Origin: Maylandia zebra
Lineage: Eukaryota; Chordata; Actinopteri; Cichliformes; Cichlidae
DNA: 64,000 nt
Assembly: GCF_041146795.1 (NCBI RefSeq)
Contig: NC_135178.1
Span: 806,001 to 870,000, forward strand
Direction of reading: 5' to 3'
How positions within the stretch are numbered: position 1 is the stretch's first letter; every line of letters begins with the position of its first letter. Under the pieces are notes generated by a model. It was not told the origin of the DNA. It saw nothing but the letters and a program-made list of their open reading frames with translations, and searched no databases. The translations under genes were made by a program, and so were the position numbers. Below, piece after piece: positions 7,175 through 60,442 of the stretch.

Positions 7175-7308
7175 CATTGATATCATGTCTACCCAGAAAT
7201 CTCAAGTTCATCATTTTGCGCTTCCACAATTATTTGAATAAAAAATTAAAAGAGAAGGAATGTTAAAATGAATATTTATTAGATTTTCAAAACAGTTAAT
7301 TATGGTAC

Positions 7309-7543
7309 AGGGCTAGATTCTAATGAACAGTCTCTACTTTATAATAAAAAACAAACAGAATAATTATTTTATATACCTGTGTATATACATTTACACAAAG
7401 GTCTTCATCTTAATATATACTTTATAATAAAAATAAAAGCATACACAATGGAAAATGGCAAAATTACCCTGAATTGGGCATAATGGACACCAACTAGAAT
7501 TTGTAAACTGGCAAACTTTTCATTTATGTTGCTGTCACTTAAG
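7309..7543. repeat. Left arm of a 235-bp inverted repeat
   Basis: The reverse complement recurs at 8964-9312. Removing a 102-bp insertion and its 12-bp duplication from the right arm leaves exactly 235 bp there too, with about six mismatches by eye. This arm lies downstream of the OB-fold gene's stop codon. Confidence 0.88.
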
Positions 7544-7689
7544 CATTTAACTATGTGTGATTAATTAAAGATTATAAATACACAGAAAATATTAACTTCA
7601 TTGTTTTTAATTTATAAAATATAACATTTTATATTTTTGAACAAACAAACAAGTAACAAACAAAGGAACAAATCAATACATTTTTTAAA

Positions 7690-8188
7690 TTATTCACAGT
7701 GTTTTTTTTTAATCTGCATAATTTGCTTCCCCTTAATTTGAACTTTTACCCTGACCACTGCCTCCTCAAGTTCATCGTCAAATGGTGTCCAGAGCTCACT
7801 GTTGATGAAGAGGCTCTGCCCATCATCCAGAAGAACCTCAAGCTGGTTCGGCTCGTCACTCATGGCCACACCAACGATGAGGACCTCCTCTCTGTCCTCT
7901 ACTTTTGTCTGTTGACAAAGCATAAGCACATATTTAGCCCTGCAAACATTCCCTTTTTTTTAATCCAAAAAGAAAATCTATGGTCATCATGTGGTTTCAG
8001 TAAGTCACCAAGACATACACATTGTGTTTATACGTTTATATGTATGTGTTACATTATGCATTATATGATGCATGATCAATCATGCAGGTAATTAAATCCC
8101 AAAGACGTCTTGGGATTATGTTTATCTGGACATCTATATATGTGTGTGTGTGTGCGTGTGTGTGTGTGTGTGTGTGTATAAGATAATA

Positions 8189-8221
<33 letters not shown>

Positions 8222-9990
8222 TATAGATATATATATATAATTTCATATTTTGACCCAGACTGAAAGAATATGTAGTTACATTTCAAAACCTAGTTCTACA
8301 CATTTGTTGATAAGACAATGCTGTGAAATATTGGTACAAAGGTTTAGCTTCTTCATACCTGAACCTTCGTATAAGTAGTGCTGTGCAGCTGTGGCCCATA
8401 TGCGGTGTGGTTCAGCTTCATGTGGGAGAGGTTAATCTGGTCTCCCACATTAAAGGTGTGAATTCCTGCCTCCCTCCAGAGGCAGACTGAGATAGTATAA
8501 CCATCCTGAAATCACAAATATGACAGAATTATAGATTTATTAATTAAATAATCCAAAATCCAGTAACTAGAAAAAGAAAGCCCACAGCCTCATACACTCT
8601 GCTCATGTACCAGCAATGTTAAATTTGTCACATTAGTTTAACGAATTTCAATATAAAACTAAAATTGCATCATTACCTCCTTTAGCTGGAGATTTCGCAA
8701 GGGAACGTGTTGTTTTCCCGACACTACATCCTTTACTGCAGAAAACTGAAAAGTAAATTGAAATAAAATATCAATAATAGTTAGTGTATTGATATGTGGT
8801 AGGTTTTTATTTCTTCAGTAAGATTTTTAGATTATATTATTGCTGTTATTAAGTATTCTTCATTGAACTTATCAGAAGCAGTTTATTAGGATGTTTTTCA
8901 TGATTATGAAACAGCTTGAAGGAAATCTTTCTACAAACAATACATTTGTAACTTAGTTGGATTCTTAAGTGACAGCAACATAAATGAAAAGTTTGCCAGT
9001 TTACAAATTCTAGTTGGTGTCCATTATGCCCAATTCAGGGTAATTTTGCCAGTTTCCATTGTATCTGCTTTTATTTTTATTATAAAGTATATATTAAGAT
9101 GTCTGTGAAGGTTCTCAGTCATCCAGGTCATCGTAGTCAAAGGAGCTTTCAAAGAAAAGCATCTGGACTTCTTTAAAGAAGAAGTCTTATTAAGTCTTCA
9201 TCTTATATTAAGATGAAGACCTTTGTATAAATTTATATACACAGGTATATAAAATAATTATTCTGTTTGTTTTTTATTATCAAGTAGAGACTGTTCATTA
9301 GAATCTAGCCCTTACAATACAAATGTATGTAGACACAATGCAAATTGGCTGCATAAATACCAGAAACGGTCTTTGGAAAATATTTTTTAAAAATTGTGCT
9401 TAACAATCTTAACAGAATTTAGTCTCTGCTTGACAGCAAAAATTATTTTTAACTGTAAAAAAATACACGCAATAATGGGTTATTTGGAAACCTAAAGCCA
9501 TGTAAATTCTGATGGAACCACAAATACTTACCTCCACCACCTCCCCTTGGACTGTGATGAGCCCGCCACTTGTGGAGCCCATCTTCAGAGGTGTCAGTGG
9601 AGCAGGAGGATGTAGAAGATGCTCTGCTTCGGTGAAACGATCCTCACTAACAGTTAGGTTTGCAGCCTTAAAAAATTGGGTTCGTGCAGTTATATTTATA
9701 TTGTATGGTGGGGCCGTGCCCCTGAGTTCATACCCCCTCATTATGTAGCATCCCCCCTGCTGGATTTTAGAGGAGAATTCCTCAAATATTGTGACCTTGG
9801 TCACAGTCTGGGTATCTGTGATGGCTGCCACAGTGTTCTTTTTGGTAATCAAGGGTGTAGCTGTCCCATCTTGGAAGTGCCAGCTAGTGACCCTCAGCTG
9901 GTCGCATGATCTTAACACTTTGAAATGTAGTGGGGGTGGCCGGAAATACGGTGTGTCAGGGCGAGTATTTAGAAGCTTCATCAAAGCCAT
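7690..9990 (-). CDS. OB-fold (RPA-like) protein, four coding exons
   Basis: CDS read as complement(join(7690..7908, 8359..8505, 8677..8745, 9532..9990)), 894 nt, 297 aa. Every junction is GT/AG and phase 0, and no stop interrupts it. The ATG (MALMKLLN) sits one base after an AG acceptor, so a 5' untranslated exon lies upstream. Exon 1 (153 codons) and exons 2-3 look like two beta-rich OB-fold units of the replication-protein-A type (VSVCLWREAG and the IQGEVVEV / VGDQINLSHMK strands). The last exon is acidic, then basic (KGKQIMQIKKKH). A single-stranded nucleic-acid-binding role is inference; I do not recognise a named gene. Exons 2-4 sit between the arms of an inverted repeat. Possible alternative: a domesticated Helitron-type RPA gene. 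Confidence 0.72.
8139..8240. repeat. TG and TA microsatellites
   Basis: A (TG)n run with few interruptions is followed by a (TA)n run with GATA variants. It lies in the last intron of the OB-fold gene. Confidence 0.95.
8964..9312. repeat. Right arm of the 235-bp inverted repeat, with an insertion
   Basis: Reverse complement of 7309-7543, in the intron between exons 1 and 2 of the OB-fold gene. The arm is interrupted at 9102-9203 by a Penelope-type fragment, so the inverted duplication came first. Confidence 0.88.
9102..9203. mobile_element. Penelope-like element end fragment (102 bp)
   Basis: It contains GTTCTCAGTCATCCAGGTCA and GGAGCTT...CTGGACTTCTT, the same terminal block seen in the Penelope pieces at 30232, 31080 and 46440. 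A 12-bp direct duplication flanks it (TATATTAAGATG at 9090-9101 and 9204-9215). The uninterrupted sister arm at 7309-7543 has only one copy, which proves the duplication. Confidence 0.8.
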
Positions 9991-29805: not shown

Positions 29806-30231
29806 AAGCCCGGTTGCAGCACCGGTTCAGCATGGTGGTCAGCAGTCCCAGTAACTGCGGCAAGACTTTTTTTTGTTAAAAGTGTCATTGAAAACTCTTC
29901 CAGGATTATATCACACAGCATTGATAACATTGTGTATATATACTCATGCTGGCAGCCACTATATGACCAGCTTCTTAAGATAAAAGACATAAACTTTGTT
30001 AACGGTATACCCGAATCTCTTGCTGATGACACCCTTCTGCCTAAAGACAAGAACAATTTGCTAATTATAGATGATGTGATGAACGATGCCACTAACAATT
30101 TAGAAGTACAAAATGTGTTCACAAAGTATGTGCATCATAGGAATTTGAGTTGTATATAACTAGTTCAGAATTTGTTTATTCAAGGAAAATCCAGTAGAAC
30201 CATTTCCTTGAACACTAACTACCTAATATTC
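29806..30231 (+). pseudogene. P-loop ATPase remnant, viral-packaging type
   Basis: A Walker-A-like segment SPSNCGKTFF is readable at about 29841-29876, a Walker-B LLIIDDVM at about 30058, and then TKYVHHRNLS, a pattern I associate with packaging ATPases of Polinton/adintovirus-like elements. The frame changes in a run of eight T at 29867-29874, and again near 30158, after which QNLFIQGKSSR is visible with a stop before it. The copy is therefore dead. The Penelope piece starts directly after it. Assignment is by motif only; other HerA/FtsK-like or P-loop families are possible. Confidence 0.5.
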
Positions 30232-31115
30232 AAAGGAGCTTGCAAAGAAAGGCGTCTGGACTTCTTAAAGTTACTTGAAGACGTTTCACCTCTCATCCGA
30301 CAAGCTTCTTCAGTTCTAAGGTCAAATGGTGGAGAGTCCCAGATATAAACCTAGTTTTGGCGTTTTGTTTTTCGGGTAAACCAGTTTTTGTCTGAGCGTG
30401 TTGCTGGGTCTGAAATACACTGGGATGTCGTGCTTGGTTCACCCGAAAGACAAAACGCCAAAACACAGACTTAACAATGTGGTGTATGCTGTACAGTGCA
30501 GCGAGGAATGCCCAGACCTCTACATTGGAGAGACCAAACAGCCACTTCACAAGCGCATGGCACAACATAGAAAAGCCACCTCCACAGGACAAGACTCAGC
30601 AGTCCATCTGCATCTTAAGGATAAAGGACACTCTTTCGAGGATGCCAATGTTCACATTTTGGACAGAGAGGACAGATGGTTTGAAAGAGGAGTGAAAGAA
30701 GCATCTATGTCCACTGTGAGCGACCATCTTTGAACAGAGGCGGTGGTTTACGACACCAACTCTCTGCCATCTATAATCCAGTTTTGAGATCCCTTCCCAG
30801 ACGCCTTAACGCCCACTCACATCCTGGGCCATCTGATCTCAGGAATTCGCATGATAAGGTGGGGCCAGGTTTCACAATGAACTCACCCGAAACTCTGGCT
30901 GATTGGGACCCACACCCAGTTTCACACCTTGGCTCAGACGATTAGAGGATCATCAGGGGGTCCTTTTGTCCCTCTGTGGGGGGTTACTCCCACTAGGTTT
31001 ATATCTGGGACTCTCCACCATTTGACCTTAGAACTGAAGAAGCTTGTCGGATGAGAGGTGAAACGTCTTCAAGTAACTTAAAGAAGTCCAGACGCTTTTC
31101 TTTGCAAGCTCCTTT
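30232..31115 (+). mobile_element. Penelope-like element fragment with inverted terminal blocks
   Basis: Bounded by GGAGCTTGCAAAGAAA...CTGGACTTCTTAAAG (30236 on) and its inverted copy ending near 31115. The inverted blocks match over roughly 120 bp (30232-30355 against 31000-31123), including GAAGACGTTTCACCTCTCATC. Only the nuclease part of the coding region is present between them. Penelope elements often carry inverted or tandem terminal copies. Confidence 0.85.
30398..30733 (+). pseudogene. Penelope GIY-YIG endonuclease segment
   Basis: An open frame containing NNVVYAVQCSEECPDLYIGE: VVYAV and LYIG stand for the GIY and YIG strands. It is followed by KRMAQHR (catalytic Arg), then DRWFERGVKEA. 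The downstream AIYNPVLRSLPRRLN continues in a second frame from about 30755. There is no linked RT, so it is a 5'-truncated insertion. The nuclease nicks target DNA during insertion in intact elements. Confidence 0.85.
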
Positions 31116-31123
31116 GACTACGG

Positions 31124-31457: not shown

Positions 31458-32791
31458 CTATTGTATGATTTTTTTTTAAACTTTTTTAAAGTAACTGTGG
31501 AAGTGCTATCAATGGGGTTTTTTTCTTATTTTTAGCAATCAACATACCAAAATAGTATCTTTCTACACCAGCAAGGAGTTTCAGCCTTAACCTGAAAAGA
31601 GAGATTAAGAAATAGGTATAATACGTTATTGTCCAGCGCTTTGTCACTTTTTTTTTTACATAATCAGTTATCAAACACTGTATACATACAGGTGGTCTAA
31701 CAACAACCACTTTTTAAACATTTGCTAATACCATCACATAGATATACAAACTAGACAAAGAGTTACAAACATCATATTAAAACTGGAACAACAAGGAAAA
31801 TGTAATGCAGGGATCGCTGGTGTGTTTATGGAGTGGACACAAAAACAAACAAACAAAAACAAGCTGTTTATTTCAGGGTGATGTCCAAAAACATAAAAGC
31901 AAGGCAAGGCGAAACAAGGGTGAAACTAAACTAAAACCTTAACTGCGGAAAACCTAAACTAACATTGAAAACAATAACGAGAGACAAGAACATGAAACTT
32001 AACAGGGACATGCAAACATAAAAGTGAAAAATGTCTAAACATGAGCACGAACCTGAGCAGTAGCAGAAATTCTGTGACTTTGACATGAAGATAAATAGAC
32101 ACTGAACAGACGAAGACAGAGGACTTAAATACATAGAAAGGAAAAGAGGGAAGTGGAAACACCGGGGAAACACAGCTGACACAAATGAACCTGAATGCCA
32201 CAGGGTAAGTACAACAAAACAAACTGAACATGGAACCACCAGACTCTTCACAGTAAAACAGAAACAAGAAAGGGACGCAGTCAAGACAACACGAGCTTGA
32301 CAAATAGAACACGGAACACGCATAAATACATGGGGAGACTCAAGGAAACAGATTAGGGAAATGAGGGCATGGACATAAAAGTAAAACACAGAAGACAAGA
32401 CACATAACCAAGGTGACAGATGAAACATAACTAGGCCAGAACTCAACTAATTCTTAACTAATAATAACACAGGAATTTCACCTTATTTCAATATAACATC
32501 AAAATTAAACTCAAAAAGTCCTTCTAATGTACACTGGGGTTGAGAATAAAATTAGAGAAAAAAACTGTTTGGTAAATGTATTATTGATGGGTTCACCCTC
32601 AAGTTAACCTGAAATAGACCAGGCACAACAACTTAATAGTTCAGAAGATTCAACATTCCTACTTGTATACAGAACTATTTGCAATCCAAACCAAGTTCTA
32701 CTGGCTAATTATATGATGATTGATCACTGCTTATATCATCCTATGCCTACAATATTGATGCCCCAGTTTTAATATGTACAATTCCAGAGAA
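31458..32791. other. No gene seen; A-rich repeat-like tract
   Basis: The plus strand at 31780-32450 is rich in AAACA/GGAACAC motifs; its complement gives a 171-codon Cys/Phe/Ser-rich frame with no domain. I treat this as an unclassified repeat. The left target duplication of the HECT element is at 32792-32797. Confidence 0.5.
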
Positions 32792-32841
32792 CTAAACTAT
32801 GGAAGGCCGTTTCCGCCACTAAAAAAAAACAAACGGATACT

Positions 32842-33052
32842 TAACTCGAAATTTCGAGTTATCTTTCTCGAAATTTCGACTTATTTTCTCAAAATTTCAA
32901 CTTAGCAACTCGAAATTTAGACTTATTTTCTCAAAATTTCAACCTAGCAACTCGAAATTTCAACTTAGCAACTCGAAATTTCAACTTAACTCGAAATTAT
33001 GAGAGAAATAACTCGAAACTTTGAGAAAATAACTCAAAATTTCGAGTTAGCT
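32842..33052. repeat. Left subterminal palindromic array
   Basis: About ten short units of AACTCGAAATTTCGAGTTA or partial forms (CTCAAAATTTC, CTCGAAATTTC). The full unit is self-complementary. Matched inverted by 38609-38777. Confidence 0.85.
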
Positions 33053-33369
33053 CTGCCAATCAGTAATCTATGTGAATGACGTCATTTCCGTGTTACCCGG
33101 AAGCTGAAGCCCTCAGCTACAAATGCTACAGAAATGCTAACAGTATTACAGATACGGATCATGAATTCACAAATTGCTGAGTGTTTTAAGCGTATATTGC
33201 ATATTATAGAAACATCAGATATATTAAAGTACACGTGAAAAGTAGTGCTTTTACTAAACATGAAAACAGAAATATAGGAAAATATCTTTTAAATAACTAC
33301 CCCATCGGCTATGCAGTTTTGAAAAAGGGGGTGTGAAATGCACTACACACAGGTCTTTATCACCAGATT

Positions 33370-35050
33370 CCACATTTATTTATAGTTTTCCCTGCGTTAT
33401 GACTGAACACAGTCTGACAGCTGTTGGTCCCAGCTGATTTCCCTCTCCCTCTGCTCCTCTCCGTCTCACTATAAAAAGGGAAGGAAAAAACCATCAGTCC
33501 AAATCGCCATCAGCTGTTTTCACCGGCATCTCCAGCACCGCCCCGTTGAGCTCACTGCACCACTCCTCCCCTGCAGCCGCGCCCGGGACCACACCTCCGC
33601 CACACACCCCCACCGCCCGACTGAGGCCGGGGAGCTGTCCTGCCGAACCTACTCCCCCCCCCCCACCCCCCCGCGAGCGAGAGAGGAAATCGGCCACCGC
33701 CATCTGCGCCCCCAGCCTATGGACCACCTTGAACTTAAAGGGCTGTAAAGCCAGATACCACCGGGTGATCCAGGCGTTGGCATCCTTCATGCGGTGGAGC
33801 CACTGCAGCGGGGCGTAGTCCGAGCAGAGGGTGAATGAGCGCCCCAGGAGGTAATAGCGAAGGGAGTCGACCGCCCACCGGATAGCCAAGCACTCTGCCA
33901 GCTTCCGGCTGATGTAAAGAACGGGACGGTCGGCCCCCCCTTACCTGCTGGGACAAAACGGCCCCCAGCCCTCTGTTCGAGGCGTCAGTCTGCAGAACAA
34001 AAGGGAGGGAAAAGTTAGGAGTGTGAAGCAGCGGCTCCCCACAGAGAGACTTTTTCACCTGCACAAACGCCGCCTGGCACGGCCCCGTCCACTGAACCAG
34101 ATCTGGAGCACCCTTTCGGGTGAGATCGGTCAAGGGGCTGGTCAGCTGCGCAAACCCTGGCACGAAACGGCGATAGTAACCTGCCAGCCCCAGAAACCGT
34201 CTCACCTCCTTTTTAGTCTTGGGGCGCGGGCAGGATGCGATAACCGCCGTCTTCTCCACCTGTGGACGCACCTGCCCGCCCCCCAAGTGGTACCCCAGAT
34301 ACTGTACCTCCCTCCGTCCAACCGCACACTTCTTCGGGTTGGCCGTGAGCCCCGCCCTCCTCAGGGACTCCAGGACCGTGGCCACCCGCTGCACATGCTC
34401 CGCCCAGGTGTCGCTGTGGATGATCACGTCATCCAGGTAGGCAGCAGCATATGCAGCGTGCGGACGCAGCACCCGGTCCATGAGGCGCTGAAAGGTGGCA
34501 GGGGCTCGGAACAAGCCGAACGGAAGCGTAACGAATTGGTACAACCCGTACGGAGTGGAGAAGGCCGTTTTCTCCTTGGACTCGGCAGACAAGGGAATCT
34601 GCCAGTAGCCCTTGGTTAAATCCAGTGTCGTGAAAAAACGGGCCGTGCCCAGCCGATCCAGGAGCTCGTCGACCCGGGGCATGGGATAAGCATCAAAACG
34701 TGACACTTCATTCACCTTGCGATAGTCGACACAGAACCGTATAGACCCATCCTTCTTCACCACAAGAACGATGGGGCTACACCAGGCGCTGTGCGACTCT
34801 TCTATCACTCCCATTTTCAGCATTTCAGCCAATTCCCTCTGATCGATTTGCCGTTTATGCTCAGAAAGCCTGTAGGGCCGTGAACGCACCGTCACGCCAG
34901 GCTGCGTTACAAAATTATGCTCAATGAGAGACGTTCGGCCTGGCAGGGGGGAGAACACATCTGCAAACCGCTGTTGTGAGACCACAACAGGGGTCTCACA
35001 ACCACTACAATACATGTCATCTTGTGACATTAAATTAATAAAATTTGACA
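33370..35050 (-). pseudogene. Ty3/gypsy pol fragment (RT and RNase H), nested
   Basis: Minus strand: the RT runs from HNFVTQPGVTVRSRPYRLS through IVLVVKKDGSIRFCVDYRK, FFTTLDLTKGYWQIPL and the active site AYLDDVI, then the connection KEVRRFLGLAGYYRRF and the RNase H start LQTDASNRGLG. The frame changes near 33930, after which LAIRWAVDSLRYYLLGRSF and VADFLSR of RNase H are readable. Gag, protease, integrase and LTRs are missing. It lies inside the HECT element, downstream of the gene, so it inserted later. Its higher GC content than the surroundings also marks it as an insert. Confidence 0.93.
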
Positions 35051-35472
35051 AATTAAAATTAACCTAATGCATTTTTTAAAGTTGATTTTGGATTCAAATA
35101 ATAGAAAAATTGAATAAAAGGTGGAAAAACTGCTTTCATTGTTCACATGCACACATGCTGACTGAGGAAATGGGAATGCTTATAAATGGTCTCCAGACTG
35201 CCACTCTGAGACCTCTGCAGAAATGCATTTCACAAGTGTTTAGAAAAATATTGCCTCAGTTGTAATAGGAAAACACAGAAACACAAAGAAGTACCTCAAA
35301 TTGCATTACAGTGGTATTTCACCAAAGACTTTTTCTTGGAACTCAGTTTTTAAACACCTGAAACCTTTGCTGTGACATTCACATGGGAACACTTTAGTCT
35401 TAGTTCACAACTCAAATATAATCTGTTGTAAAACAACAATGGCTTTTAAGCCATTGTCCGTGAATCAAACCT

Positions 35473-37511
35473 TTAGATAATGTCCATAACCCACACATTT
35501 GATTCCAACACACTGTTCATCTCCGATCTGAAGTCAGGATAGCTGTCATAATTTATCGACAGCTCCAGTACACACCCACATGTGTGTGCCACAGGTCGTC
35601 TCTGGAAACCTTTAAGTTGATGATGTTCTTTCCCAGATGTAAATCTGAACCTGTGCAAAACCTGAGGAACAAACACAAATGTTCCTTCTCAGCATTCTTC
35701 ACATATGTAGTTAGATATTTCTGAATCAGCTTCTGGTGAGCCGTCATTGTTTCAGGGAAAGTGAGACACTTGAGAACTTTTCTCACAGTTGGTTGGAGGG
35801 TTTCATAAACTGAAGATAGATCACAAAGGCTTTCCCGTGGCATGCTGAGTGTTCTTGCCCACTGTTCAATAACATAGGCAGGCTCTTGGACAAGTGTTTT
35901 GTGTGCAAGCTCCAATAGGACTTCAGTGGCATTGCAGGCTGTTGGTATCTTTCTGCAGCTGTGGTTATCAAGTATGTCTATAAGTTCTTCTTGGTCCACG
36001 GTGCTAAAGTCTGATCGCCGCGCCTCTAACACTGTACGCTCAGAGTCAGGCATGAACTTAAGGAAATTCTCCACAGTATCACTCTTTACATATCCAAAGG
36101 CAGCTTGTTCCAGAATGGCAGGTGCAATTTTCACAGGCAGATATTTCTCTCTAACCCACCCAAATGCAATGATTCTGCCCACACTCTCCCACTCCGGTTG
36201 CCCAAAATCATGCCTTAAGAAGGGCACTTTGTAAACGTTTCCAGTGGTGCACTTGTCATAGAATTCTTTCCAGAATTCTGAAAGACAATCTCTCACAACT
36301 CCCCCATCGTCATGGGCCATTTCAGGTGTTCCATCAGGCAGTAAGACCTGGATTTTGATGTCGACATCTTCAAGGTCCTTATCACTAAAATGTGAAATGA
36401 GCTCTGACATTACCTGCCCTCTGTGGACCACCACTACTCTCCTCACTCTCTCACTGGATGGACCAGGTTGTGGAGAAAAAATCAGGGTGTCATCCAAATT
36501 TATTGGCTCACTGTCAGAAAAGGGGCCAACAAAAATAATGTCACTGCTGTGAGAAGTGTTAGCACTTAGAGACTGCGTGGAAGTTTGTGGAAGGTTATCG
36601 TTTGGGGTGTCTTCAATGTATGTCACATCATGGCTGATTGTTTCAAATGGAGCAGATGTTTGGACTGTAGTGACAGAAAAAGAAGAGGTTTGGTTTTGAG
36701 GACTCGCTTCAATTTCTGAAGATGGATACAAACCTGGGTTGGAGCTCTGAAGGCTGTCATTTTGTTTTTTCTTTGTGGTGAGGTAGAACCTGAGGATATT
36801 TAGTTTTGTGACATGATAAAGTTCTCCTACTGTCAATGCATCATCGACTATCATCTCTTGATAATCCTTCAGATCACAGTCAAAATCTGTTAAGGGCCCC
36901 TGAATGTTTCCCCCATCTGAAAAGAACAGGCCTGTTGCAACCTGTAATATGTCCCTTTTCTTGGCATCCTTGCAAATGTCTATTTTTCTTGTTCCTCCTC
37001 GTCTAGCTCTAACCTGCTTGAAAACCTCAGTGTCTTCATCATAATGCATCCATCCTATTTCTATTTTTCTATTTCTCTTCAGAGCATTTCTTTTATGGGT
37101 TGTTTGGGAATTTTCTTATTGCCGTGTGCTACTGCCATCCTCTTCAGATAATTTTCTTTTGGACAGTTTGGATTTCAGCCGTTCAAAAAGCGCTGACTTG
37201 CGGCTGCTGCCCCTCTATCTGCAAAATCCAAATACTGCTAGACGATCACCGTATGATGGCAAATAAGTCTTCAGCTCCTCATCTGTCATTAGACTTATGA
37301 CACTGGCATCAATCTAAAGATGGAAAAATAATTTAATTTATTGAAACAACCAGCCTTGAAAATACAATCCTATTTTTAACTTAAGAACAATGAGGAAAAG
37401 TTGCATTTCAACCAGTATCTTGTTGGAATTAAGTACCTTCTCATTCTGCAAGGTCTGTATAATTTCCTCAGAGACTTCTCTTTGTTTCAAGAATTCAGTC
37501 AAGTCTCCCAT
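35473..37511 (-). pseudogene. SAM-HECT E3 ubiquitin-ligase gene (G2E3-like), disrupted
   Basis: Read as complement(join(35473..37313, 37437..37511)): exon 1 encodes MGDLTEFLKQREVSEEIIQ... (25 codons, donor GTACTT); a 123-bp intron; exon 2 continues IDASVISLMTDEELKTYLP, together a SAM-like domain of about 60 residues. Then come a basic KSKLSKRKLSEED linker, a beta-grasp-like RKIDICKDAKKRDILQVA region, a Ser/Thr-rich spacer and a HECT domain with a DDGGVVRDCLSEFW N-lobe. The C-lobe ends RRPVAHTCGCVLELS, with the catalytic Cys, and DII. Breaks: TAG at 37215-37217, TAA at 37116-37118 and a one-base shift near 35617 before the Cys loop. Similar multi-copy fish genes are labelled G2E3-like. It appears to be cargo or a native gene of the enclosing element. 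Confidence 0.85.
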
Positions 37512-38050
37512 GCTGTAAGGAAGGATGTAAATTAAAATTACAAAATTAAAATAAAGCCACCATATTATCATCAAAGTATCTGTGCCTACCTACATTATGA
37601 GCTCTGACTATGGTGGAGAAGTGGGAACTGCATTTTTAAGTGTCCATTTGCACTGTAACTACAATCAGCATCACAATACAGTCAATCCCACATTTTCTCA
37701 GTTGTCTGGTTACAGTTTTATTGGTTTTGTTCCTTATTTATATAGTTGTCAGTCATATTCCCTGTTTTGGGTGATTTGTGATTTTGTTTTATACAGTGCT
37801 GTACACTTATTACGCATGCTTTCAGCAAAACGTCTGTTTCACCAGACGTAACAGGTGTCATTAGCGTGTAACAGAAACCTTATAGGTGCCTTTGGTTAAC
37901 CCTCACGTTGCATTCTGTTCAACTTTGTATGTAACAATCGCGGTCACACTGTTTTTGTATACCTTTTATCCAGTTATCATTTGTAGGAAGGCATTCAAAA
38001 CTGAAGAACCTGGCGCCATTTGCTCCCCTCCACAGTCTCACTGAACTCTG

Positions 38051-38051
<1 letters not shown>

Positions 38052-38115
<64 letters not shown>
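38052..38115. repeat. CA microsatellite
   Basis: An uninterrupted (CA)n run of about 60 bp, just upstream of the LINE tail. Confidence 0.97.
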
Positions 38116-38117
<2 letters not shown>

Positions 38118-38119
38118 CT

Positions 38120-38487
38120 GACTCACTCACTGGCCTGCACCAGTTACCAGTCACTTTGTGGAGCATTGGACTGCCATTACCTCATAAGACTTTGTTGTTA
38201 CACTATCTCTTACCGCATACCACTAAATCTCCATTTGCACTATTTGCCTATTTGCACTACTATGCCTCCTTACTTGAATATTGTATATTGTATATTGCAT
38301 AGCTTTTTTTTTTTTTTTTGTTATACGTAAAATTGTATTGTATTTATTTAAATTTTTACTTTTTAATTATTTTATTTGCATTTTTTAATCACTAGGGTTT
38401 GAGAGTAATGAAATTTCTATTCTCTGTATGTCCTGTACATGTGGCAGAATTGACAAATAAAGTTGACTTGACTTGACTTGACTTGAC
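38120..38487 (+). repeat. LINE 3' tail with TTGAC repeats
   Basis: Ends GACAAATAAAGTTGACTTG with tandem ACTTG pentamers, a typical end of a fish non-LTR element. Poly-T and AT-rich sequence precede it. Inserted within the HECT element, between the gene and the right TIR. Confidence 0.65.
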
Positions 38488-38608
38488 ATTTGTTGTTATA
38501 CAGTAGCTCACGACACGATCCAGTTTTGAGTGCGCACCCTTTTGCGCCATATCCTTCCGGGTAACAAGGAAATGACATCAGCCACGTAGATTTCTTATTG
38601 GCACCGCT

Positions 38609-38777
38609 AACTCGAAATTTTGAGTTATTTTCTCAAAATTTTGAGTTAATAACTCGAAATTTCGAGTTATTTTTCTCAAAATTTCGAGTTAATAAGTCGA
38701 AATTTCGAGTTAATAAGTCCGAATTTTGAGAAAATAACTCGAAATTTCAAGAAAATAACTCGAAATTTCGAGTTATG
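38609..38777. repeat. Right subterminal palindromic array
   Basis: Units of AACTCGAAATTTCGAGTTA and variants such as AATAAGTCGAAATTTCGAG, inverted relative to 32842-33052. A poly-T run and the terminal 23 bp follow. Confidence 0.85.
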
Positions 38778-38829
38778 GATCTTTTTTTTTTTTTTTTTTT
38801 AGTGGCGGAAACGGGCTTCCATACTAAAC

Positions 38830-40330
38830 ATAGCTTTCAAGTTCCACCAGTTGGCAAATGAGTTAGCTAAGCAGCGCAGCAGTGCAACAAAGACTCAACA
38901 ATTTATCCACAAGGCAGTTTATAAACTACAAATCTGTTTAGCACTCTAGAAACGCCTGCTAAAGACTTATTTTACAGTAGTAAGAGATTAGAAATGTATG
39001 AGCAGGGCTTAGCTTTAGTGCTCGCCTCTGCTGGGACTAATAATGTGTTATACTAAATGTGAGCTTATTAGCTTCCTGCAAAACACACTTTGGGGCCAAT
39101 GCCACCAAGACCATACACTGGAACCCTATTTTTACATTAGGTGGCATGGATTTTAAAAAAAAAAGAAAAGAAAAAAGCAATTCTTAAATGCCTGCTACAA
39201 TTCAACATTTATGACGATAATAATTCGTATTACAAAGGAGAAATAAGGTTTCAGAAAAAATAAAACTTACCACAAAAGCGCTCACAAAGACAAAATTGCT
39301 GCAAAGGCGGTAAATGCAGCTAGCCAAGTGCAGAGCGTTAGCTGTTCCAGTTCAAAGGTCTGTAACATACCACAGCACGTCCTCCTTTATCCAGCGTCAA
39401 AGACAATGCAGCAAAAAACCTTCCCAAGTGATTTTATTTCTGTTCGGAAATTAACGTTCCACAGCTTTCTTTCGGAGTAATGAGCGGGCATTCGGACTCG
39501 AAGCGACGATTCCAAGATGGTTCCCAGCTCCTCATGAAGAACAGGTGGCACACGTACGTACGTACGTAGGCACGTATGTGATGTCAGTGTCGACTCAAAT
39601 TATTCAAGGGCAATGTCTGAAACTAATCAACATATTCAAGTACTGATAACTTGAAAAAACAAACTTGTTCAAACTACTCAAAGAAATAAGGGTGTATGAA
39701 CTTATAACGGGTTTTTAAGTAGTTGCAACTCATTTCATTTATCAAACTATTACTATTCGGTCTTACAGTGCAGGAATAAATCTGTGATTTCTGAGTTCAG
39801 TCCTGCATTGTGGGTCCTCCCTCTGTTCGCCACACATCTGCTTCCATGGTACTTCTCTATTAAAGTACAGCAAAGAGGAAACGGATGAATCAATATGGAT
39901 TAACATAGCAGGACACGCTGGTGAAGGATATCTGTGGCTATTTGCTCTCTAAAAGTGACGAAGCTTCTCAGTGCTTTTCTGTTATTGACTACTGAATATG
40001 GCAGTAGTTCTGTGAAGTTTCTGTTCTGTGCAATCTTCACCAAAATAAATGTCTGCAGCCTTGAACTTTCTGGTGACGTTGGCCACACTGTCATTTCACA
40101 CAACAGTCTGAATACCTGAAGCTTAAAAGAAACGAGTCTTTCCTGCGCAAATGTTTTATCAAACAACACTGTCTGCACTGTGGATGCTCACAAAAGGATG
40201 TGCCATCACTGGTTGTATGCTTGCTGCTGCATGGTCATTGGCCAGCCTTTTGCTGTCAGCTGACGCATATCAGTCTTCACTCCCTCCTTCCATCAGTCAC
40301 TCCTGTGTGAATGTCTGGTCTCCGTACCTA
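38830..40330. other. Intergenic; possible promoter region
   Basis: No coding exon recognised. Near 39270 the minus strand has a good donor (GTGGTAAGTTTTA) after a GC-richer stretch up to about 39540, which could be an antisense non-coding first exon. A CGTA-repeat lies at 39553-39572. A 92-codon minus-strand frame at 39900-40178 has no domain I know. Confidence 0.4.
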
Positions 40331-41099: not shown

Positions 41100-41325
41100 A
41101 AACTGTTCTATACAACATTCAAAGATTCACACCCATTCATACAGGCATTGTTTTCTATGCGTTTTCCAGGGAAGCGCTTTCTATCTAACATTCACGCTCC
41201 AATTGATCCATCAGAGTGCAACTTGGCGTTAGTATCATGCCCAAGGATATTTGGCATGTAGACTGGAGCAGCCCAGGACCAAGCCTCCAACCTTCTGATT
41301 AATAGATGACCTGCTCCAACAATTA
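41100..41325 (-). mobile_element. tRNA-derived SINE, degenerate
   Basis: In reverse it resembles the SINE at 54525-54793: TGCCCAAGGATATTTGGCATG, CCTCCAACCTTCTGATTA and AGATGACCTGCTCCAAC (tRNA-type A-box region). Its tRNA-related end overlaps the left arm of the 211-bp inverted repeat. Confidence 0.65.
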
Positions 41326-41513
41326 CTTATTCTTTCCTAAATGAACCTGTACAGCTCTACATTGTTGTACATTTCATAGAGTTAGAACACTGAATGCCTG
41401 TCAGAGATTTATTTTACTGTCTGTGTTTCTTTCTATGGTCTTTCCACCATCTCAGCTCCTGACAGCTTCCTGCCATCCCACCCGGGTTTTTTGTTTTTGC
41501 TCTCCCTTATTAA
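41303..41513. repeat. Left arm of a 211-bp inverted repeat
   Basis: Reads TAGATGACCTGCTCCAAC ... CTCTCCCTTATTAA. The reverse complement lies at 42387-42597 with no mismatch that I can find. The first ~20 bp belong to the adjacent SINE, and only this arm has the rest of that SINE, so this arm is the source and the other the copy. Confidence 0.9.
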
Positions 41514-42386
41514 AGCTTAATTTTCCCAGGAGACCAGGGAACCAGCCTAAATACAGATGATTTCATTATTACATGACCAAACCTCTATACTCCCAAATAT
41601 TTTCATAATGTTTAGTGAAAAAAAGTTGTCTTTAAAGCAATACATAAAATACAAACAACCTGTAAAAAGTTGACATCATAACATATAAGCACAAGATACT
41701 AAAACTGTAAACTATGTCATATCAGGAAAAGAAATGGACTTGAAGTACAGAGTACTCAGTAAATACTGCATTAACTTTAAAGTTTAACGTTTAGGATTAC
41801 GATTTTAAAGAAAGCAATAATTAAATTGAAACCACCAAAATATATAAGGCCCATTCTAATTGCAAGTATTTTAACTCTTGATACTTTAAAAGTGCTAGAA
41901 ATATTTTTATATAATGTAGTTTCCATTGACTGTACACTGTATGTCGTATACTTTTATACTTTTAGCTCTCTTTTGTGGATGGAAGCAGAGCTGGAAGCTT
42001 ACACGGTCACTTGGTGGTGAGGGCGAGTTGTGTATTTTTCTTTAGAAAAAAGTCTGTGACTCTATTTGTTATTAACTTTGTGTTTTGAGTGACAGGATGT
42101 CTCCTCATTGTCACAATGTTGAAATCTATCAGGAGATGTATGTGCAGAGTATTATTGGATAGAATACTAAGTCTCAGTGTCAAAATCAAGACAACAATAG
42201 CTTGTTACAGAGGTGCAAAGACAACAGGTTGTTTCTGTGTGAACTGCTGCTGCTCTGCAAATGCTGCACAGTTATAAAATACTGGAAAGAAGAGCAATGT
42301 TAATTCATGTGTAACTGTGACTTTTCCAGTTTTCTTTCACTTTTACCAGAAACTGAAAGTTTTTCATTCTTAGCAAAACCACATTG

Positions 42387-42597
42387 TTAATAAGGGAGAG
42401 CAAAAACAAAAAACCCGGGTGGGATGGCAGGAAGCTGTCAGGAGCTGAGATGGTGGAAAGACCATAGAAAGAAACACAGACAGTAAAATAAATCTCTGAC
42501 AGGCATTCAGTGTTCTAACTCTATGAAATGTACAACAATGTAGAGCTGTACAGGTTCATTTAGGAAAGAATAAGTAATTGTTGGAGCAGGTCATCTA
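42387..42597. repeat. Right arm of the 211-bp inverted repeat
   Basis: Starts TTAATAAGGGAGAGC and ends GGTCATCTA. Separated from the left arm by 873 bp of unique-looking sequence. The pair lies between the proposed 5' exon and the coding exons of ankrd34b, so a transcript would carry a long hairpin. Confidence 0.9.
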
Positions 42598-58835: not shown

Positions 58836-58837
58836 TA

Positions 58838-60440
58838 CAGTGGGGCAAAAAAGTATTTAGTCAGCCACCGATTGTGCAAGTTCCCCCACTTAAAATAATG
58901 ACAGAGGTCAGTAATTTGCACCAGAGGTACACTTCAACTGTGAGAGACAGAATGTGAAAAAAAATCCATGAATTCACATGCTAGGATTTGTAAAGAATTT
59001 ATTCGTAAATCGGGGTGGAAAATAAGTATTTGGTCACCTCAAACATGGAAAATCTCTGGCTCTCACAGACCTGTAACGTCTTCTGTAAGAAGCTTTTCTG
59101 TCCCCCACTCGTTACCTGTATGAATGGCACCTGTTTGAACTCATCATCTGTATAAAAGACACCTGTCCACAGCCTCAAACAGTCAGACTCCAAACTCCGC
59201 CATGGCCAAGACCAAGGAGCTTTCGAAGGACACCAGGAAAAGTATTGTAGACCTGCACCAGACTGGGAAGAGTGAATCTACAATAGGCAAGCAGCTTGGT
59301 GTGAAAAAATCAACTGTGGGAGCAATCATCAGAAAATGGAAGACATACAAGACCACTGATAATCTCCCTTGATCTGGGGCTCCACGCAAGATCTCATCCC
59401 GTGGGGTCAAAATGATCATGAGAACGGTGAGCAAAGATCCCAGAACCACACGGGGGGACCTGGTGAATGACCTGCAGAGAGCTGGGACCAAAGTAACAAA
59501 GGTCACCATCAGTAACACACTACAACGGCAGGGAATCAAATCCCGCAGTGCCAGACGTGTTCCGCTGCTGAAGCCAGTGCATGTCCAGGCCCATCTGAAG
59601 TTTGCCAGAGAGCACATGGATGATACAGCAGAGGATTGGGAGAATGTCATGTGGTCAGATGAAACCAAAGTAGAACTTTTTGGTATAAACTCAACTTGTC
59701 GTGTTTGGAGGAAGAAGAATACTGAGTTGCATCCCAAGAACACCATACCTACTGTGAAGCATGGGGGTGGAAACATCATGCTATGGGGCTGTTTTTCTGC
59801 CAAGGGGACAGGACGACTGATCCGTGTTAAGGACAGAATGAATGGGGCCATGTATCGTGAGATTTTGAGCCAAAACCTCCTTCCATCAGTGAGAACTTTG
59901 AAGATGAAACGAGGCTGGGTCTTCCAACATGACAATGATCCAAAACACACCGCCCGGGCAACAAAGGAGTGGCTCCGTAAGAAGCATTTGAAAGTCCTGG
60001 AGTGGCCTAGCCAGTCTCCAGACCTCAACCCCATAGAAAATCTGTGGCGGGAGTTGAAAGTCCGTGTTGCTCGGCGACAGCCCCAAAACATCACTGCTCT
60101 CGAGAAGATCTGCATGGAGGAATGGGCCAAAATACCAGCTACTGTGTGTGCAAACCTGGTAAAGACCTATAGTAAACGTTTGACCTCTGTTATTGCCAAC
60201 AAAGGTTATGTTACAAAGTATTGAGTTGTATTTTTGTTATTGACCAAATACTTATTTTCCACCCTGATTTACGAATAAATTCTTTACAAATCCTACCATG
60301 TGAATTCATGGATTTTTTTTTCACATTCTGTCTCTCACAGTTGAAGTGTACCTCTGGTGCAAATTACTGACCTCTGTCATCATTTTAGGTGGGGGAACTT
60401 GCACAATCGGTGGCTGACTAAATACTTTTTTGCCCCACTG
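58838..60440 (+). mobile_element. Tc1-like transposon, full length (1603 bp)
   Basis: TA duplications at 58836-58837 and 60441-60442. The ends CAGTGGGGCAAAAAAGTATT... and ...AATACTTTTTTGCCCCACTG are long inverted repeats: more than 200 bp match, through TTGTAAAGAATTTATTCGTA. One transposase gene lies between. The near identity of the TIRs points to a fairly recent insertion. Confidence 0.95.
59202..60224 (+). pseudogene. Tc1 transposase, one premature stop
   Basis: ATG at 59202 (CCATGG context), 340 codons to the TGA at 60222-60224. N-terminus: paired-type helix-turn-helix ([18 protein letters not shown], then [15 protein letters not shown]). Catalytic DD34E: Asp in VMWSDETK, Asp in [10 protein letters not shown] and Glu in NPIENLWRE, with 34 residues between the last two. 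The only break I find is TGA at 59370-59372 (codon 57), in the linker where a CGA Arg would be usual, consistent with a C-to-T change. The rest is continuous, and a downstream Met at 59412 could give an N-truncated protein without the DNA-binding domain. Confidence 0.93.
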
Positions 60441-60442
60441 TA

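Follow-up and report, generated by a model that had tools for sequence, protein, structure and literature searches.

HECT ubiquitin-ligase and transposase genes in convergent order within probable IS3EU-type transposons of a cichlid genome

INTRODUCTION

A 64,000-nucleotide stretch of the genome of the cichlid Maylandia zebra (GCF_041146795.1, contig NC_135178.1, forward-strand positions 806,001 to 870,000; C12:806001-870000 below), here called the window, holds a 6-kb element in which long terminal inverted repeats (TIRs) enclose a gene for a HECT ubiquitin ligase. Does such a gene belong to the transposon that carries it, and what would a ligase do there? A model's reading of the letters alone (the original prediction) had described the element, seen no transposase, left the gene as "native or captured," and proposed that elements of this kind may account for part of the spread of HECT genes in fishes. 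Here, the window copy was compared with other copies in the source genome and with related proteins. We conclude, with a probability of roughly 85%, that the window element is a dead copy, with internal deletions, of an IS3EU-type transposon with two genes, a transposase and a convergent HECT ligase, the ligase presumably acting in trans on a factor that limits the element.

RESULTS

The window element spans positions 32798 to 38823 (6,026 bp), limits that were confirmed on re-reading. Its termini read TATGG at the start and CCATA at the end, and CTAAAC abuts both on the outside, giving a 6-bp target-site duplication (TSD). The outermost arms (32798-32833 and 38788-38823) are 94% complementary over 36 nt, and the full arms form an inverted pair with 75.5% identity. 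The predicted boundaries, 23-bp TIRs with one mismatch, long arms, and CTAAAC duplication were all re-found. A scan of the window for TIRs matching at 18 or more of 20 positions and flanked by an exact 6-bp repeat returned 10 places; nine had self-complementary flanks, as expected for sites inside longer inverted repeats, and only the duplication at 32798-38823 was nonpalindromic. The same scan of dinucleotide-block shuffles (n = 10) returned no places. Within the arms lie tandem 21-bp palindromic repeats, with 6.9 (32843-32988) and 2.8 (32987-33046) copies of the unit on the left and 8.0 copies on the right. Single-strand pieces of 150 nt from these arrays folded better than 200 of 200 shuffles (z values of −4.7 and −11.7), and the arrays are probably transposase-binding sites. 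Rfam gave no match at the gathering threshold across 32700-38900, and the TIR sequence did not occur in the literature searched. The features of the window copy are as follows, with the basis of each in parentheses.

32792..32797, unstranded: left TSD copy, CTAAAC (flank comparison)
32798..33103, plus strand: left TIR, starting TATGGAAGGCCGTTTCCGCCACT (arm alignment; genome TIR search)
32843..33046, unstranded: subterminal tandem 21-bp palindromic repeats, left arm (repeat and fold analysis)
33161..33193, plus strand: transposase remnant, first 11 codons, the remainder deleted (reading of frames in the window and a fuller copy)
33197..33331, unstranded: two short interior remnants, 33197-33252 and 33256-33331 (C9-element coordinates 1170-1225 and 2921-2996)
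33332..34999, minus strand: later gypsy pol fragment of about 1.7 kb with reverse transcriptase and RNase H (Pfam RVT_1, RT_RNaseH_2, and RT_RNaseH; unmatched in the C9 element)
35476..37313, minus strand: HECT exon 2, with the SAM-like remainder, ubiquitin-like domain, linker, and HECT domain (alignment to P0001)
37437..37511, minus strand: HECT exon 1, 75 nt, start of the SAM-like region, GT donor at 37436 (alignment to P0001)
38023..38486, unstranded: later insertion of about 464 bp with (CA)n and a (TTGAC)n tail (unmatched in the C9 element, whose coordinates continue across)
38554..38823, minus strand: right TIR, its outer 23 nt one base off the left TIR (arm alignment)
38608..38775, unstranded: subterminal tandem 21-bp palindromic repeats, right arm (repeat and fold analysis)
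38824..38829, unstranded: right TSD copy, CTAAAC (flank comparison)

The reference for the HECT gene was the Oreochromis niloticus protein P0001, to which it is 95% identical. The gene runs on the minus strand from an ATG at 37511 to 35476, with a GT..AG intron between its two exons. The predicted two-exon gene for a SAM-like and a HECT domain is thus present, down to the HTC motif with the catalytic Cys, but it is broken, a defect absent from the original prediction: exon 2 is interrupted by two stops (TAG, 37217; TAA, 37118) and by a frameshift at about 35600-35618, directly ahead of the HTC motif. With two stops and a frameshift, the window copy encodes no full-length ligase.

The source genome, 962 Mb in size, was then searched with the TIR, and 40 of 393 candidates were scored. 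At least 153 TIR matches lie at (by our count) at least 37 places, including that of the window. Seven regions were opened around long or unpaired TIRs, and three of them contain HECT, on C9 (L009), C6 (L010 and L016), and C12 (L012 and L017).

C9 copy: 6,630 bp, TSD GACATG
C6 copy: 6,670 bp, TSD TAAGTG
C12 copy: 6,672 bp, TSD TATATG

Other TIR pairs of this family therefore do enclose a HECT gene, on which the original prediction had staked itself, and many pairs are short and empty. To its further question of whether some copies also hold a transposase, the answer is yes for all three: each has a transposase frame just inside one TIR and a HECT gene convergent to it. The transposase matched Pfam rva_4 (PF24764) with E values of 1.8e-31 in the C6 copy (L010) and 7.8e-19 in the C9 copy (L009), and the C12 frame (L012) has 281 codons, as in L010. 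HECT exon 2 of the three copies is 95 to 97% identical to P0001; in the C6 and C12 copies it is open across 618 codons, and the TAG that was counted there is consistent with the splice-acceptor AG. Pieces of the window family's transposase (88%) and HECT gene (92%) also lie together at L027 (C1:26500753-26501295).

Comparison with the C9 copy accounts for the interior of the window copy. Positions 33104-33193 are 98.9% identical to L009:1747-1836, the element from about 35000 onward is 96.4% identical to the C9 copy, and the interior remnants were identified solely through DNA comparison with L009. The gypsy pol fragment sits between C9-element coordinates 2996 and 3334; its predicted reverse transcriptase and RNase H domains were confirmed by Pfam, and no long terminal repeats were noticed beside it, no search having been aimed at them. 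We take the insertion at 38023-38486 to resemble a long or short interspersed element. On the leftover stretches of the window element, Pfam gave no match at the curated cutoff and three weak ones (E values of 0.07 to 0.26). Judged by these alignments, the window copy is a dead deletion derivative of a fuller two-gene element. That no transposase is visible holds for this copy, of which only 11 codons are left, but not for the family, since the body lost here is present in fuller copies.

To look beyond this family, the source genome was searched with the HECT protein (69 of 131 candidates scored, exon pieces counted apart). At least 84 matches were found, many of them in groups of near-identical copies. 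Four further HECT regions were opened, followed by three additions, giving the following loci.

C20:21986454-21996766 (L048, L052): 10,313 bp, TSD GTTTAT, element ends TACGGAAG, 600-codon HECT frame
C4:26031103-26041534 (L049, L053): 10,432 bp, TSD CAGTCG, element ends TACGGAAG, 600-codon HECT frame
C5: 7,319 bp, TSD GTTTTT, element ends TACGGAGC, 655-codon HECT frame
C1: 6,099 bp, TSD GATAAT, 647-codon HECT frame
C9:18.64M (L051): right terminus lost, 647-codon HECT frame

At all five loci, the transposase is convergent to HECT. The transposases of these three other families are 49 to 52% identical to that of the C6 copy, keep D132, D191, and E230 invariant, and match rva_4 with E values of 6.5e-28 to 2.4e-25, and their HECT proteins are 33 to 38% identical to P0001. 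The two-gene plan recurs in four families, with fuller copies of 6.1 to 10.4 kb. In the C20 and C4 elements, the inverted arms exceed 1 kb and reach into the HECT exon, so that part of the SAM-like coding region lies in both arms. Repeats with 60-bp spacing occur near the right end of both.

Nine HECT loci with both flanks examined were tallied (the window, C9, C6, C12, C20, C4, C5, C9:18.64M, and C1). TAYGG..CCRTA at both ends (TATGG or TACGG) together with an exact 6-bp TSD was found at eight of the nine. A transposase is present at eight, the window being the exception, and its order is convergent at 8/8; at seven of the eight TSD-bearing loci, exact TSDs jointly enclose transposase and HECT. 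Outside the tally, L029 and L031 (the 647-codon group or its kin) carry, convergent to HECT, the C-terminal part of a transposase; a TACGGAAGCGTAG end is seen at L031 as well, and transposase pieces are present at L027 and L046. The proposal that HECT genes are spread by such elements is supported by three more copies of the same family and by the five loci of three other families with TIRs and transposase, one of them without its right end. The choice between native and captured leans toward native, because the HECT gene is retained in families that have diverged to about 50% transposase identity.

Some of these copies are young. Around HECT, the C20 and C4 elements share 99.975% identity over 4,080 bp (L036/L037), a longer comparison of 9,167 bp gives 99.0%, and their HECT exons, on different contigs, show no differences across 600 codons. 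Among the matches listed, eight HECT matches of 37 to 38% identity to P0001 fall within 1.1 Mb at C3:6.38-7.51 Mb, possibly a segmental duplication of one insertion.

The HECT protein of about 640 amino acids comprises a SAM-like region, a ubiquitin-like domain, a linker (median identity across the family, 20%), and a HECT domain with its catalytic Cys. Both the HECT fold and the family profile were matched, and profile and fold searches returned UBR5, HUWE1, UBE3C, TOM1, and E6AP. The likeness to UBR5 and HUWE1 lies in the HECT fold and the catalytic Cys, but identity in structural alignment is 13 to 15%, and the element's protein is set apart by its SAM-like and ubiquitin-like parts and by a Met at position four from the C terminus. 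Among 67 aligned proteins, the catalytic Cys of the C-lobe is present in 65 (two gapped) and this Met in 62 (four gapped). Of 17 proteins of at least 707 amino acids considered as HECT-transposase fusions, one (P0127) has another precomputed domain, PF13843.

Related proteins are present in many fishes as well as in frogs, molluscs, a hemichordate, and beetles, and NCBI lists them as uncharacterized host proteins; scans of viral and genome contigs (protein, alignment, and terminal 20/23-mer) gave no relative outside the source genome. Protein trees were built from 49 and 74 named proteins, hand-picked from the matches, and several long-branch placements in them are unsure. The trees conflict with host phylogeny: gar stands beside Danio and loaches, Dallia beside Paramisgurnus in both trees, and Paramormyrops beside Monopterus in the second (support, 0.85). 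Proteins from fishes of different orders, Fundulus heteroclitus (P0090) and Menidia menidia (P0096), are 99.4% identical over 674 amino acids, compared with 80% for Cololabis. None of their four differences (positions 87, 396, 534, and 663) falls in the linker as we read it, and another Menidia protein matches without a difference over 360 amino acids. At the protein level, this pattern suggests horizontal transfer between fishes, the Fundulus and Menidia pair being a strong candidate. A bullfrog relative, P0170, belongs to a cluster listed on 23 contigs (possibly redundant) and could be mobile in frogs too.

For classification, the elements were compared with published accounts. The termini of IS3EU families read TA..TA, their TSDs are usually 6 bp long, and Repbase listed 45 such families, 17 autonomous, in May 2022 (PMC10045372). 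The superfamily has been annotated in fishes (PMC12763893, PMC10338511, PMC9945428). The loci described here share with IS3EU/GingerRoot the TA..TA or TAYGG..CCRTA termini, TIRs longer than 30 bp, 6-bp TSDs (with the ends, at eight of nine HECT loci), and an integrase-type DDE transposase (rva_4, in four families); what sets them apart is a HECT ubiquitin ligase as the second gene. The TET+ IS3EU elements of rust fungi (PMC12730594) have 6-bp TSDs, TAYGG..CCRTA ends, and an alpha-kinase gene opposite to the transposase, a similar plan, but the accessory enzymes there are alpha-kinase and TET/JBP dioxygenase rather than a ubiquitin ligase. One candidate repeat left unclassified in Cottus (PMC5638112) matches G2E3 by blastx and is thus another repeated fish sequence with likeness to a HECT ligase, but in the passage on it neither TIRs nor a transposase are noted and it is not recognized as a transposon. 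No paper joining IS3EU and HECT was found in the literature searched, and Repbase, Dfam, or subscription papers may hold prior notice; literature listings gave nothing relevant on HECT genes tied to transposons, Kolobok elements, horizontal transfer, or passenger genes.

Four other inverted-repeat features were seen in the window. A Tc1/mariner-type element (58836-60442) is bounded by inverted ends of 202 bp with 97.5% identity and contains a transposase frame of 283 codons (HTH_Tnp_Tc3_2 and DDE_3). A 1.3-kb stretch (41303-42597) is bounded by perfect 211-bp TIRs. Two further inverted-repeat stretches have arms of 129 bp (30227-31120) and 117 bp (7301-9319, with nested inverted repeats at 7406-9101).

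DISCUSSION

These results are consistent with a working mechanism for a two-gene IS3EU-type transposon. The transposase would bind the 21-bp subterminal palindromes, pair the ends, and cut them; by analogy with the integrase family, the cut ends would be joined to target strands 6 bp apart, producing the 6-bp TSD. The HECT protein would ubiquitinate in trans a substrate that otherwise limits the element, and short TIR-only, MITE-like (miniature inverted-repeat transposable element), and deletion copies, the window's included, may likewise be mobilized in trans. We predict, at even odds, that the HECT target is a host repressor or a repair or chromatin factor. That the accessory gene is of use to the element is hinted at best by the parallel with rust IS3EU elements, whose transposase is likewise paired with modifying enzymes. 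That several families in one genome share the two-gene design suggests that ubiquitin tagging helps these elements to live in genomes.

Several observations weigh against this reading. Of the 37 TIR places listed, 28 resemble MITEs, with two opposed TIRs separated by less than 1 kb, and HECT is missing from four of the seven opened TIR regions: L011 is a 753-bp TIR pair with TSD CTCTTG, L015 is a 676-bp TIR pair with unmatched flanks, and only a single end was seen at L013 and L014. HECT is therefore not needed in cis. Both genes of the C9 copy are broken, HECT being split into two frames and the transposase frame interrupted, and C9:18.64M (L051) is the one tallied locus of nine without a right terminus. 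These nine were a chosen set rather than a sample; examination of both ends did not extend to the 380-codon group, the cluster on C3, or the majority of 30 HECT loci. IS3EU membership is judged from the ends, the TSD, and the integrase core rather than from a transposase tree. The HECT dN/dS comparison that the original prediction had proposed gave pairwise values of 0.33 to 0.70 within groups, on 5 to 29 changes, and transposase dN/dS between C6 and C9 was 0.85 on 8 changes; dS between families is saturated. Although not proof, these few changes suggest at most weak constraint on either gene, and they do not indicate strong purifying selection.

A different target for the ligase, namely, the element's own transposase or integration complex, with turnover or remodeling there rather than action on host factors, comes second, at less than even odds. 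HECT is encoded beside the transposase in 8/8 transposase-bearing HECT loci, as that idea would have it, and the ubiquitin-like and SAM-like parts could mediate assembly; however, the fast-diverging linker equally fits changing host targets. It is improbable that a host HECT gene was captured once, as a roleless accident of the locus or family. The broken window and C9 copies and the many short, empty TIR copies would suit such a capture, but HECT keeps the same convergent orientation in four families with diverged transposases, frames of 600 to 655 codons are open in several copies, and relatives extend to fishes, frogs, molluscs, and beetles. Slightly less probable still is membership in another superfamily with 6-bp TSDs, Polinton/Maverick or Dada. 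Polintons also have 6-bp TSDs and a related integrase. Polintons/Mavericks carry integrase, polymerase, and capsid genes. The elements described here, however, are 6 to 10 kb long with TAYGG..CCRTA ends as in IS3EU, and the sole L050 frames of at least 130 codons are transposase and HECT, no dedicated polymerase or capsid search having been made. Least probable is an ordinary host HECT gene family flanked by chance transposons, its tree reflecting old paralogues: NCBI's host-protein entries and the coexistence of several groups in one species would fit, but exact 6-bp TSDs enclose HECT at 8/9 loci (with the transposase at seven), near-identical copies lie on different contigs, and Fundulus and Menidia share 99.4% protein identity, against 80% for Cololabis.

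If the two-gene reading is right, its broadest extension, which we offer tentatively, is a widespread animal IS3EU lineage with its own conserved HECT effector that destroys or remodels host limiting factors and spreads horizontally between fishes, many annotated fish HECT genes being its gene. Transposons with chromatin-acting enzymes (TET/JBP, in fungi) are already known; if a ubiquitin ligase is a standard second gene, the ubiquitin system too would be in the service of transposons, here in animals. With the young, near-identical copies, counter-silencing by a DNA transposon would become testable. Part of the growth in HECT copy number in fish annotation would then be explained, and caution would be due before such genes are counted as host genes.
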